The notes beneath the pieces were generated by a model. The model searched no databases. It worked only from the letters and a program-made list of their open reading frames with translations, and was not told the DNA's origin. A DNA stretch of 64,000 nt, from NCBI RefSeq assembly GCF_000190635.1, contig NC_015172.1:682001-746000 (forward strand). The letters run 5' to 3'. This DNA is from Syntrophobotulus glycolicus DSM 8271. GTDB taxonomy: Bacteria > Bacillota > Desulfitobacteriia > Desulfitobacteriales > Syntrophobotulaceae. The position numbers and the translations under genes are program-made. How positions within the stretch are numbered: position 1 is the first letter of the stretch; every line of letters starts with the position of its first letter. Positions 5,238-37,254 of this stretch are shown here, piece after piece.

Positions 5238-5496
5238 TATTCTTTAACTGGAAGGATGAGAGGCATATTTGAGAAGGATTTAAAATAAAAACCAATTTTT
5301 CTGATATGGCTGAATGACAGAAGAAGGAAAATAGATAATCTTGTCGAAACATTAACCCTACATAGCACTAAAACGGGATGAAAACCAAAAGTCAAAAGAT
5401 ATAGTTTGTGAAGAAAATATTTGATTACTGAGATGCGTATTTTCAAAACCGTTGATCTGAATCACCTCAAAATTATTCAATTTATATAGATTAAGG

Positions 5497-7302
5497 ATGT
5501 CTGTAGTGCAAGTTTATATCATCACGGCAGTAATATGCAGCGTGCTTTTCCTGATTTGTTCATATTATATTTCTCACCGTTTAAAATTATCAGCTAAGGT
5601 TGTTATCACTTGTGATCTATTCATGTGTCTGGGGACTGTCCTGTTCCCGGTGTTTTTAATTAAGAATTTTGTTTGGCTTTGGGTTTTCGCGGTGATCAGT
5701 TATCTTGTGATCTTAAGTATGATCATTTATAAATACTATGGACAGAAGCAAACTGAAGCAATAGGGATAAGTCCACTTGACTTTGAAGATTTGACAAAAA
5801 TGTTTGAGGAGAGAGAGTCGGCCGTACTCCCGGAAATAATGGCAGAGGAAATCAGGAAAGAGATAGAGGAACTCGGAGGGGAAACCGGGGAATCTGAGGA
5901 AGAGATCAAAGAGCTCGGAGGGGAAAAAGAGGAATCTGAGGAAGAGATCGAAGAGCATGGAGAAGAAACCGGGGAATCTGAGGAAGAGATCGAAGAGCTT
6001 GGAGAGGAAACCAAGGAATCTGAGGAAGAGATCGAAGAGCTCGGAGAGGAAACCGAGGAATCTGAGGAAGAGATAGAGGAACTCGGAGGGGAAACCGAGG
6101 AGTCCGAGGAAGAGACAGAAGAGCTCGGAGAGGAAACCGAGGAATCTGAGGAAGAGATCGAAGAGCTTGGGGAGGAAACCGAGGAGTCCGAGGAAGAGAT
6201 CGAAGAGCTTGGGGAGGAAACCGGGGAATCTGAGGAAGAGATCGAAGAGCTTGGAGAGGAAACCGGGGAGTCCGAGGAAGAGATAGAAGAACTCGGAGAG
6301 GAAACCGGGGAGTCTGAGGAAGAGATAGAGGAACTCGGAGAAGAGGAAACTGAGGAGCCCGAGGAAGAGACAGAAGAGCTCGGAGAGGAAACTGAGGAGC
6401 CCGAGGAAGAGACAGAAGAGCTCGGAGAGGAAACCGGGGAGTCCGAGGAAGAGATCGAAGAGCTTGGAGAGGAAACCGGGGAGTCCGAGGAAGAGATAGA
6501 GGAACTCGGGGGGGAAACCGAGGAGTCCGAGGAAGAGATCGAAGAGCTTGGAGAGGAAACCGGGGAGTCTGAGGAAGAGATAGAAGAGCTTGGAGAGGAA
6601 ACCGAGGAATCCGAGGAAGAGATAGAGGAGCTCGGAGGGGAAACCGGGGAGTCTGAGGAAGAGATAGAAGAGCTTGGAGAGGAAACCGAGGAATCCGAGG
6701 AAGAGATAGAGGAGCTCGGAGGGGAAACCGAGGAGTCCGAGGAAGAGATCGAGGAGCTTGGAGAGAAAACCGAGGAATCTGAGGAAGAGATCGAGGAGCT
6801 TGGAGAGAAAACCGAGGAATCTGAGGAAGAGACAGAAGAGTTCGGAGGGGAAACCGAGGAATCTGGGGAAGAGATAGAAGAGCTTGGAGAGGAAACCGAG
6901 GAATCTGAGGAAGAGATCGAAGAGCTTGGGGAGGAAACCGGGGAATCCAAGGAAGAGACAGAAGAGCTTGGAGAGGAAACCGAGGAGTCCGAGGAAGAGA
7001 CGGAGGATGTCAAGGAACAAAGCACGAAGCCAGTGAATGTCGAGGATCTGATCGATTCAGGTTTTGCGGCTAAATCCAGAGGATCATTCCATGAAGCGGC
7101 AGAGCTGTTTGTTCAGGCTTTGGACTTAAGGCCTGCCCCGGATCTGGCCTATTATTTGATTATTGATGCCTATGACATGTGTGTGGCTGCGGGTGATCCC
7201 AATAGGATAATCAGGAGATTGAATCAATATTGTTTAGAATACAAAGATACCTTGCCCTCCGGCATGAAGGAAAACTTTGAAAAGTGGTTAAAAAAACCTT
7301 GA
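5497..7302 (+). CDS. Membrane protein with about 27 Glu-rich 14-residue repeats and a C-terminal TPR-like domain
   Basis: The 601-residue product has three predicted membrane helices at about residues 4-25, 35-58 and 60-80. A linker rich in Glu follows, then a repeat tract at about 129-505 with consensus ETGESEEEIEELGE. The end is a helical domain (FAAKSRGSFHEAAELFVQALDLRP) that resembles a tetratricopeptide repeat. The repeat is strongly acidic with one Ile and one Leu per 14 residues, so it may be a long charged helix or an extended spacer. The ATG at 5497 has only AAGG directly before it; GTG 5506 is an alternative start. PRC-barrel and VanW genes follow, suggesting an envelope or division-site role. 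No function is assigned. Confidence 0.75.
   Translation: MSVVQVYIITAVICSVLFLICSYYISHRLKLSAKVVITCDLFMCLGTVLFPVFLIKNFVWLWVFAVISYLVILSMIIYKYYGQKQTEAIGISPLDFEDLTKMFEERESAVLPEIMAEEIRKEIEELGGETGESEEEIKELGGEKEESEEEIEEHGEETGESEEEIEELGEETKESEEEIEELGEETEESEEEIEELGGETEESEEETEELGEETEESEEEIEELGEETEESEEEIEELGEETGESEEEIEELGEETGESEEEIEELGEETGESEEEIEELGEEETEEPEEETEELGEETEEPEEETEELGEETGESEEEIEELGEETGESEEEIEELGGETEESEEEIEELGEETGESEEEIEELGEETEESEEEIEELGGETGESEEEIEELGEETEESEEEIEELGGETEESEEEIEELGEKTEESEEEIEELGEKTEESEEETEEFGGETEESGEEIEELGEETEESEEEIEELGEETGESKEETEELGEETEESEEETEDVKEQSTKPVNVEDLIDSGFAAKSRGSFHEAAELFVQALDLRPAPDLAYYLIIDAYDMCVAAGDPNRIIRRLNQYCLEYKDTLPSGMKENFEKWLKKP
5881..7014 (+). repeat. 42-bp in-frame tandem repeat, about 27 copies
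   Basis: Units of 42 bp encode ETGESEEEIEELGE and variants: G/E at residue 3, E/G at the last residue, I/T at residue 9, and S/P at residue 5 in two units. One unit near 6341 has an extra Glu codon. Copies share long identical stretches, as expected from recent unequal exchange or slippage. Confidence 0.95.
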
Positions 7303-7363
7303 GTTTTTATAAAATAATATTATGAATACGATGTATATGATCAAACAAAGGAGGATTTTTGTT

Positions 7364-8194
7364 TTGAAATCGATTAAGGAAATTATAGGGTTGAAAATCA
7401 TTAGTATTGCGGAAGGCACTCAGGTAGGTACAGTGAAAGACCTGGTTTTAAATCCGGCAGGCGGATTATTGGACTTTTTTATTATTGATAAACAGACCGA
7501 TTCTATAGGAGCGCGCACAAAAGCGATTGCTTTTAAGGATATTCAAGGGTTGGGGGAATTTGCCATAACGATACCTGATCAAAAGGTGATTCAAAATATT
7601 ATTTCTAACAGTCAAGTACTGGAATTGATCGATCAGAATGTAAAGGTGATCGGAGCTAAGGTCCTGACGATAAAAGGAACGATTATCGGTGAGGTGACTG
7701 AAATCTATTTTGATGAAGAAACCGGAAAGATCAATAAATGTGTTTATGAAGATAAGACCAAAGAACAGAAAGAGATTAATGCTGAGTCAATTGTTACGTA
7801 CGGAGAAAATTTGCTGATTGTGAACGACGGATCAAGGCAAAATAAGTCTTTCGGGCAGGAAGCCGTCATTGAAGACAAATTGCCGCCCCAAATTCAGGCG
7901 CAGGAAGTGCAGGAGGTTCAGGAAGTGCAGGAAGAGCAGGAAATACCAGCTCCTCCGGGTATCACCGAAGCCGCAGCAACCAGCGACAGCGCCGAGAATA
8001 GTCCTAATGATGGGTTTAACCTGTTTGAACAGCGCCAGCTTCAGTATTTTGTCGGGAAAAAGGTCGTCAGAAATATCAAGCTTGATAATGGGGATATCCT
8101 GCCTATCGGTCAGATCATTACAAGCGATACAATAGGAAAAATAAAGACAAGAGCAACGTTGATGGAGGTTACTTCACATTTAGAAAAGGGATAA
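7364..8194 (+). CDS. PRC-barrel domain protein
   Basis: This protein of about 276 residues has two PRC-barrel-like units. One is at residues 3-75 (IGLKIISIAEGTQVGTVKDL), the second at 85-150 (VKVIGAKVLTIKGTIIGEV). Then comes a Gln/Glu/Val-rich spacer (EVQEVQEVQEEQE) and a third partial unit (YFVGKKVVRNIKLDNGDIL). PRC barrels occur in RNA-processing and sporulation (YlmC/YmxH-type) proteins. TTG 7364 is chosen because AAAGGAGG lies 9-16 bp upstream; the ATG at 7322 lacks a site. It follows the repeat protein by 61 bp and precedes vanW by 8 bp, so all three are probably one operon. Confidence 0.75.
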   Translation: MKSIKEIIGLKIISIAEGTQVGTVKDLVLNPAGGLLDFFIIDKQTDSIGARTKAIAFKDIQGLGEFAITIPDQKVIQNIISNSQVLELIDQNVKVIGAKVLTIKGTIIGEVTEIYFDEETGKINKCVYEDKTKEQKEINAESIVTYGENLLIVNDGSRQNKSFGQEAVIEDKLPPQIQAQEVQEVQEVQEEQEIPAPPGITEAAATSDSAENSPNDGFNLFEQRQLQYFVGKKVVRNIKLDNGDILPIGQIITSDTIGKIKTRATLMEVTSHLEKG

Positions 8195-8202
8195 TATAAT
8201 TT

Positions 8203-9318
8203 ATGCAAAAAAGGTATTTGCTGATCTTACTGTTTTTAGTTTTACAGATGACGATCACAGTCGGAATAGGCATTGCAACAGCTTATGCCTTTGATCATGA
8301 GCAAGCTCCTTATGGCGTCAGGGTCGGGCAGTTGAATCTGGAGGGCTATAGTAAGGATGAGGCCTGGGAGCAAATAGAAGCAATCATGCCGCAAGAAGTT
8401 GTTTATAACGGACAGGTGTACAAGCTATCCATAGTGGATTCAAGGGAAAATGCGAAGAGCTGGCTGGAAAAACAATACCGCTTTGAAGGATCTGTATGGC
8501 TGGAAAAGGTCGCTGAATATGTGAAAAAGCACACGGGAGAAAAAATCCTTCCTGATGTATTGTTGGGGGAAGAGATCATCCCGCAATTGGAAATGATTAA
8601 GAAAGAGATTGACCGGCCTGCTTTTCCCGCGCAGTTTATTGACGAGGGAGAACAGTCGGTCATCAAGCCGGAAGAAACAGGTTATGGACTTGATGTGGAA
8701 GGCTCATGGCAAAAGCTGAGAGCAAGTTATACCAACCGGCCGGTTTCTTTGGTTGTCGAGCCGCTCAATGTGCGTCCGACGAAACAGGAATTGGCATCAG
8801 TAAATGAAATCCTGGGTGATTTCACCACATTTTTTAATCCCGGTGATCTGAATAGAGCAAATAATTTGCGTTTAGCCGCTAATGCGCTGAACAATACATT
8901 GGTGGCACCCGGAGAAGAATTCTCCTTTAACCGGGTTGTGGGGGAACGAACTGAGGTAGCCGGTTATAAGAAGGCATATATCTATGTGAATAAGACAGTG
9001 CTGCTGGGTGACGGAGGGGGGATATGCCAGGATTCAAGTACTTTGTATCAGGCGGTCCTCCGGGCTAATTTGCCGATATTGGAAAGGCATACTCATACAT
9101 TAGCGGTAAATTATGTGCCGACAGGGGAAGATGCGACAGTCGCCTATGGATTGCTGGATTTCCGTTTTAAAAACGATACAAGGGGCTATTTATTAATTAA
9201 GGCCAGGACCGGAGATAACTGGTTAAGAACGCAGCTCATCGGTTTGGCCGATTCCAATCATCCCGTGCAGGAATTTCCGGAAGGCTATCCGGCATCTTTG
9301 GCCAAATGGGAAAAATAA
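8203..9318 (+). CDS. VanW family protein
   Basis: The 371-residue product has an N-terminal signal or anchor helix (residues 4-27). A YoaR-type region beginning YGVRVGQLNLEGYS follows at about 35-200. The VanW domain lies at about 220-350, with FSFNRVVGERTEVAGYK and GDGGGICQDSSTLYQAVLRA. The family occurs in vancomycin clusters and widely in Firmicutes; its biochemical role is unknown, although the domain placement suggests an extracellular cell-wall function. It ends the cluster that begins with the Glu-rich repeat protein and is followed by a terminator. Confidence 0.88.
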   Translation: MQKRYLLILLFLVLQMTITVGIGIATAYAFDHEQAPYGVRVGQLNLEGYSKDEAWEQIEAIMPQEVVYNGQVYKLSIVDSRENAKSWLEKQYRFEGSVWLEKVAEYVKKHTGEKILPDVLLGEEIIPQLEMIKKEIDRPAFPAQFIDEGEQSVIKPEETGYGLDVEGSWQKLRASYTNRPVSLVVEPLNVRPTKQELASVNEILGDFTTFFNPGDLNRANNLRLAANALNNTLVAPGEEFSFNRVVGERTEVAGYKKAYIYVNKTVLLGDGGGICQDSSTLYQAVLRANLPILERHTHTLAVNYVPTGEDATVAYGLLDFRFKNDTRGYLLIKARTGDNWLRTQLIGLADSNHPVQEFPEGYPASLAKWEK

Positions 9319-37045: not shown

Positions 37046-37254
37046 GGGCGGAAAGGCAAAAAATTAATTAAATGTAATGAAAAAAATACATGAATGATCA
37101 ATACATAGAGATAAAAGCATAGAGATAAAAACATAAAGATCATACATCAAGATAAATGAACAGGGATAAAGATCGCAAAATGAGATATCCACAAAAAATA
37201 TAGGGCCAAGAGATCGGGCAAGATAGCCGTAAAAGGATAAACAGGAAATTGACC

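Follow-up and report, generated by a model that had tools for sequence, protein, structure and literature searches.

Three adjacent genes of Syntrophobotulus glycolicus DSM 8271, encoding a TPR-like membrane protein, a PRC-barrel protein and a VanW-family protein, form a conserved operon, a conclusion that is well supported by computation. The computed evidence gives similarly good support to the architecture of the first product, hereafter the TPR protein, in which three membrane helices are followed by a disordered acidic tract and then by a helical TPR-like domain. Many related bacteria likewise have the TPR gene, with a tract of different build, ahead of a gene for a cell-wall enzyme, so that it probably belongs to an undescribed module linked to the cell wall. 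A literature search that had most subscription journals outside its reach returned no description of a TPR-PRC-VanW operon and, in the portions of the sources available, no described regulator of VanW proteins. All coordinates below refer to the window, the 64,000-nt stretch of contig NC_015172.1 (positions 682,001-746,000, forward strand) that was analysed.

The open reading frame at 5497-7302 (+ strand, 601 aa) is present in the ORF list of the window and contains a 42-bp array for which TRF gives 27.1 copies with 87% matches; its score of 1524 far exceeds those of the other five rows for the window. Unit-by-unit reading resolves 27 in-frame tandem units resembling IEELGEETEESEEE at 5863-6999 (+ strand), 26 of them 42 bp long and one, at 6325-6369, extended to 45 bp by an extra Glu codon. 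The tract, which is predicted to be disordered, amounts to 379 residues, of which 221 (58%) are Glu. The initial annotation, which had described 27 Glu-rich 42-bp repeats over about 380 residues with an extra Glu codon in one unit, is thus confirmed on these points. Its remark that neighbouring units share variants does not stand, since adjacent units are no more alike than chance (5.04 differing positions, compared with 5.23 in shuffled order, p 0.29); a comparison at lag 2 with shuffled order gave p 0.06. Homogenisation between neighbouring units was rejected on the same grounds. At the DNA level 24 of the 27 units are distinct, and at the peptide level 14, the differences being mostly silent (pS 0.395, pN 0.060, ratio 0.15 over the 26 equal-length units). 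Two long open frames also run opposite the tract on the minus strand, at 5713-7020 and 5736-7025, because the repeat period is divisible by three. Another, short tandem repeat was seen by TRF elsewhere in the window, at 37084-37170 (41 bp, 2.1 copies).

The start of the TPR gene is more likely to be the GTG at 5506 (gene 5506-7302, + strand) than the ATG at 5497, three codons upstream, because homologues begin at the former position and a Shine-Dalgarno-like AAGGA (5493-5497, + strand) sits 8 nt before it. Two homologues, L077 (L003) and L078 (L004), have ATG at the matching position.

In a full-length model built with 14 sequences, helices span residues 2-26, 30-52 and 56-85 of the N-terminal membrane domain (5506-5760, + strand; predicted N-out, C-in), the tract is without structure (pLDDT about 40), and a folded C-terminal domain has its helices within residues 512-595, in blocks with pLDDT of 84 or higher. 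Modelled alone, this C-terminal domain (7039-7299, + strand) gives five helices with a pLDDT of 88.1. A profile of this family picks up consensus TPR proteins, designed as well as natural ones, with E-values as low as 1e-23 and mainly over helices 1-2. In the window protein no Pfam TPR model reaches its cut-off (best by E-value TPR_14, at 16.7 compared with 23.5 bits), a Foldseek search with the domain gave no match at E <= 0.001 (best E 0.09), and NCBIfam yielded no named family for the whole product, its 11 matches being of low complexity and far below cut-off.

On which side of the membrane do the tract and the TPR-like domain lie? A simple helix finder located three helices in 50 of 54 homologues, window included; the rows dropped without them are L165 and L168, cut by contig ends, and L110 and L111, which are late-starting frames, while in a few of the rows counted as found (L102, L103, L101, L104 and L080, for example) the finder probably picked a wrong segment. 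By the positive-inside rule, loops rich in Lys and Arg face the cytoplasm. Loop 1 carries a mean of 3.0 such residues, loop 2 carries 1.0, and the 15 residues after helix 3 carry 2.6; loop 1 has more of them than loop 2 in 46 of the 50 homologues, and two are tied. Since loop 1 and the residues after helix 3 are the positive ones, the tract and the TPR-like domain should lie on the cytoplasmic side, a prediction made from the distribution of charge.

The second gene of the operon (7364-8194, + strand) encodes two PRC stretches. Its ORF runs from an ATG at 7322, and the TTG at 7364 is the likelier start because the alignments with homologues mostly set in at about residues 9-15. A short 9-bp in-frame array found by TRF (7900-7942, + strand) lies in the linker between the two stretches. 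The best NCBIfam relative of the PRC protein is TIGR02888 (YlmC/YmxH; E 1.1e-4), at 22.4 bits against a cut-off of 44.2. The third gene (8203-9318, + strand) encodes an N-terminal hydrophobic segment, a PG_binding_4 domain and a VanW domain with Cys275 and His298; PF04294 (E 3.1e-48) and PF12229 (E 7e-6) both match above cut-off. Among 49 VanW copies the active-site Cys is present in 44 and the His in 48, the window copy having both. Four phylum-level copies (L098, L099, L102 and L111) have Ser in place of the catalytic Cys and keep the His, and one further copy is unreadable at the Cys position.

Conservation of this order was judged over 53 loci, drawn from 34 other strong-match class genomes, 17 of 19 phylum-level genomes and the weaker class-level loci L161 and L180. 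A PRC gene lies directly downstream of the TPR gene in 52 of them (20/20 and 13/14 in the class, 17/17 at phylum level, 2/2 for L161 and L180), the exception being L169, with a PRC fragment at a contig edge. A VanW gene comes next in 48 (19/20 and 13/14 in the class, 16/17 at phylum level, 0/2 for L161 and L180); tblastn detected no VanW in L095/L061, L110, L161, L180 or L169 within the stretches covered. Loci of the same family as the window that carry a PRC homologue were not accepted as members of the operon, the TPR gene and VanW being absent from all 16 of them. In two phylum-level loci, L101 and L097, a glycogen synthase-like gene lies upstream of the operon and a DUF503 gene downstream.

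The TPR gene is not confined to this genome. A query with the C-terminal domain matched in 29 of 61 relatives. Among 82 class genomes the profile search (A1) gave 36 with a match, and in 35 the match was strong (E < 1e-25); the remaining one, in G007 (E 1.5e-4), has no PRC gene beside it and is taken as a generic TPR. In a phylum sample 26 of 398 genomes match at E <= 1e-7, 19 of these outside the class. Within its own family the window genome alone, of 25, gives a strong match. In trees of VanW and PRC sequences the window groups with genus g19 (100/99 and 99/94, respectively), beside all other order-level sequences, a position that would fit old inheritance with loss in the 24 other family genomes as well as it would fit transfer. 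Homologues with the same end domains, on which the initial annotation's account of the gene depended, therefore exist; its placing of the tract, with three membrane helices before it and a TPR-like domain after it, agrees with the helix prediction and the models, and the linkage to PRC-barrel and VanW genes that it had noted is borne out by the locus counts.

A sigma-H-like promoter precedes the TPR gene at 5325-5349 (+ strand), with AGGA at 5325-5328 as its -35 element and GTCGAAA at 5343-5349 as its -10 element, where GAAA stands for the consensus GAAT. The sigma-H consensus given for Sporomusa, in the available part of the source, is AGGA and GAAT with a 17-18 nt spacer (PMC12456013). Upstream of the TPR gene AGGA-N17/18-GAA[TA] occurs in 46 of 52 regions, compared with 1.75 expected from dinucleotide shuffles, and the strict GAAT version in 37 of 52, compared with 0.83 (these regions exclude L165 and L168, which are without upstream sequence). 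Among the six misses, several show the element displaced or ending in GAAG or GAAC. The string TGTCGAA occurs within 200 nt in 32 of 33 order-level regions, against a background of 0.03 per 200 nt. The window promoter lies 157 nt from the start, compared with about 50 nt in most order-level relatives, and the pattern AGGA-N13/15-GTCGAAW is not enriched in the window's own genome (14 matches, compared with 29 for a backwards control). Read as a promoter, the element suggests that the gene is switched on when cells enter stationary phase or begin to sporulate.

Other readings of the conserved string were considered. A leader peptide, suggested by loci where TGTCGAA happens to supply a start codon and then TCG AA, was rejected; six phylum-level loci (L098, L099, L101, L104, L105 and L107) have CGTCGAA, which yields no start, and the string is for this reason treated as promoter DNA. 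TGTCGAA is also the motif of a Spo0A box. The sigma-H spacing fits the element better than such a box does, but a box may overlap it. The type strain of S. glycolicus forms spores, according to the part of its description consulted (PMC3156405). The tie between the operon and sporulation is nevertheless weak, because SpoIIR is common both with the operon (33 of 35 class genomes) and without it (39 of 47), and restriction of the operon to spore formers was rejected for the same reason.

The start codon differs among the relatives. In 33 readable order-level loci the codon at the start position of the TPR gene is ATT in 21, GTT in 7, ACT in 2, ATG in 2 and GTG in 1, and in 7 of 8 readable phylum-level loci it is ATG. 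Of the 30 loci with ATT, GTT or ACT, 25 have no in-frame ATG, GTG or TTG between the promoter element and a conserved Tyr at residue 4; the five that have one are L080, L088, L089, L093 and L095. From this shortage of standard codons it is likely that most order-level TPR genes start at AUU, or at a CUG beside it, and these would then come out of gene finders truncated or misannotated. A precedent is Streptomyces sigR, whose non-standard start (GTC) is described, in the text available, as held down by IF3 (PMC5472188).

The linker of the TPR proteins varies widely. Among the 50 homologues measured, it ranges from 41 to 436 residues (median 135.5), with an Asp plus Glu fraction of 0.15-0.54 and a net charge that is negative in all 50, from -1 to -221; the window linker is the longest and the most acidic (-221). 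TRF finds arrays in 39 of 54 homologous genes, all with periods divisible by 3, that of L108 falling in the membrane part. The units are unrelated and 3 to 26 residues long, examples being EEETEVTEVA, PEPENE, EEAIV, DEKEAVEEETIT, AVETVE and EEQMSIAEPQ. With the same settings the 49 VanW genes yield no array at all, whereas 11 of the 52 PRC genes do have one; short in-frame arrays in the PRC linker were counted in 11 of 51 loci. A SAAQVPA array of 4.8 copies also occurs in the linker of the PRC gene of G076 (L161, 3743-4918). Copy number moves between close species, in keeping with the initial annotation's expectation that it varies: a 36-bp unit is present in 5.9, 4.5 and 2.5 copies in L172-L174, at 94-95.5% VanW identity, and a 15-bp unit in 5.1 and 3.5 copies in L090 and L177, at 95.5%. 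With the units unrelated and close species differing in number, repeat expansion in the linker is recurrent and seems to have been independent in different lineages.

Such variation raises the question of whether the tract does anything beyond joining two domains. The repeats could be neutral products of slippage in an unfolded linker, with the Glu-rich units merely the soluble survivors. Unrelated units, linker lengths from 41 to 436 residues and copy numbers that differ among closely related species are what such a process would leave. Some linkers, moreover, are hardly acidic, among them those built from SADGV in L090 and AELPA in L180; the latter has an Asp plus Glu fraction of 0.15, and L112 has a net charge of -1, so that linker acidity may be dispensable. 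A purely passive spacer does not, however, readily account for the negative charge of every linker, for the pN/pS of 0.15 among the window units or for the lack of arrays in the adjoining VanW genes, and we regard it as a real possibility that falls short of being the probable one. It is improbable that the tract acts at the membrane as a sink for divalent cations or for basic proteins, for instance while the spore dehydrates. The net charge of the window linker and the spore-forming habit of the host (PMC3156405, in the part consulted) would suit such a sink, but net charges of -1 to -20 are common in the homologues, and an unsystematic look at the array list revealed no conserved metal-binding motif in the linkers.

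Could the length of the array be an error in a genome of 2011? A near-identical array of 1.1 kb is hard to assemble, and a single genome of the species was compared; the frame is nevertheless intact across 27 units, most of which are distinct, and long arrays of comparable size occur in other assemblies (25.3 copies in L082 and 33.6 in L165, the latter cut by a contig end), which makes an artefact very unlikely. The initial annotation's envelope ruler or spacer, a tract that crosses the wall and fixes a spacing on the outer side of the membrane, is the least credible reading of all, for despite the linkage to an exported VanW protein the loop charges of 46 of 50 homologues predict a tract on the inner side, and a tenfold variation in linker length makes a precise ruler unlikely.

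The reading that we favour, although we hold it only tentatively and with less than even confidence, is that the TPR protein is a membrane-anchored cytoplasmic adaptor with a length-tolerant acidic tether, which acts at stationary phase or the onset of sporulation and serves VanW-dependent cross-linking of the wall. LapB/YciM proteins are membrane-anchored cytoplasmic TPR adaptors linked to envelope making, and the TPR protein resembles them in combining a membrane anchor with a predicted cytoplasmic TPR domain. It differs in its three helices and long disordered linker, and LapB (4zlh) gives with the C-terminal domain a weak Foldseek match (E 0.44, TM 0.53) that shows no sequence relation. 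TonB and TolA have long repetitive linkers that span the periplasm; here too a repetitive linker of variable length runs from a membrane anchor to a terminal domain, but it is predicted to be cytoplasmic and is acidic. The PRC protein, like the YlmC/YmxH sporulation proteins, has a PRC-barrel fold in spore formers, but with its two PRC stretches and the linker joining them it reaches about 276-290 aa and is much larger than C. perfringens YlmC at about 90 aa (PMC9332280, in the part available).

The third product has the closest known counterparts. Like LdtCd4 and LdtCd5 of Clostridioides difficile, it is membrane-anchored, combines PG_binding_4 and VanW domains and has the conserved Cys and His (PMC12729407, PMC11986978). 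In the portions of these accounts that were available, the C. difficile enzymes make L,D-cross-links, an L,D-transpeptidase role shown only in 2024 (PMC12729407), and cross-linking of the C. difficile spore cortex is exclusively of the L,D type (PMC11986978); those same portions mention no adaptor or PRC partner in one operon with a VanW enzyme. The VanW domains with their Cys and His, the analogy with LdtCd4/5 and the promoter together suggest a part in remodelling the wall as cells enter stationary phase or begin to sporulate.

How might an adaptor of this kind work? The operon would supply an adaptor that is anchored in the membrane and faces the cytoplasm, a PRC-barrel protein of the cytosol and a VanW-family enzyme that is exported, all expressed at stationary phase or sporulation onset from the sigma-H-like promoter. 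Three helices would anchor the adaptor with its C-terminus inside, and the long, presumably unfolded acidic tether would let the small TPR domain extend into the cytoplasm while keeping it away from the acidic membrane surface. There the TPR domain may capture a partner, the first candidate being the co-encoded PRC protein, and the adaptor could in this way link a signal inside the cell to the cross-linking of peptidoglycan that the VanW enzyme would perform outside. We infer such coupling between the TPR, PRC and VanW proteins. To judge from its variation, the tether would face no demand beyond being unfolded, hydrophilic and negative in net charge, which would leave its sequence free. Tandem duplications in multiples of three bases rebuild it again and again.

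A bolder form of this proposal, which we consider rather unlikely as a whole, is that the operon represents an undescribed, phylum-wide wall-remodelling module, in which a membrane-tethered TPR scaffold of the cytoplasm and its PRC protein would control a VanW L,D-transpeptidase at the onset of sporulation, the length and charge of the tether being tuned by recurrent, independent births of repeats and an AUU start limiting synthesis in one order. A conserved operon with a cytoplasmic adaptor would nonetheless offer a direct candidate regulator of the VanW L,D-transpeptidases. The linkers, for their part, constitute a natural series of in-frame, mostly acidic and repeatedly rebuilt tracts at homologous positions, and swapping them between homologues would make it testable which of length, charge or sequence a disordered tether needs.
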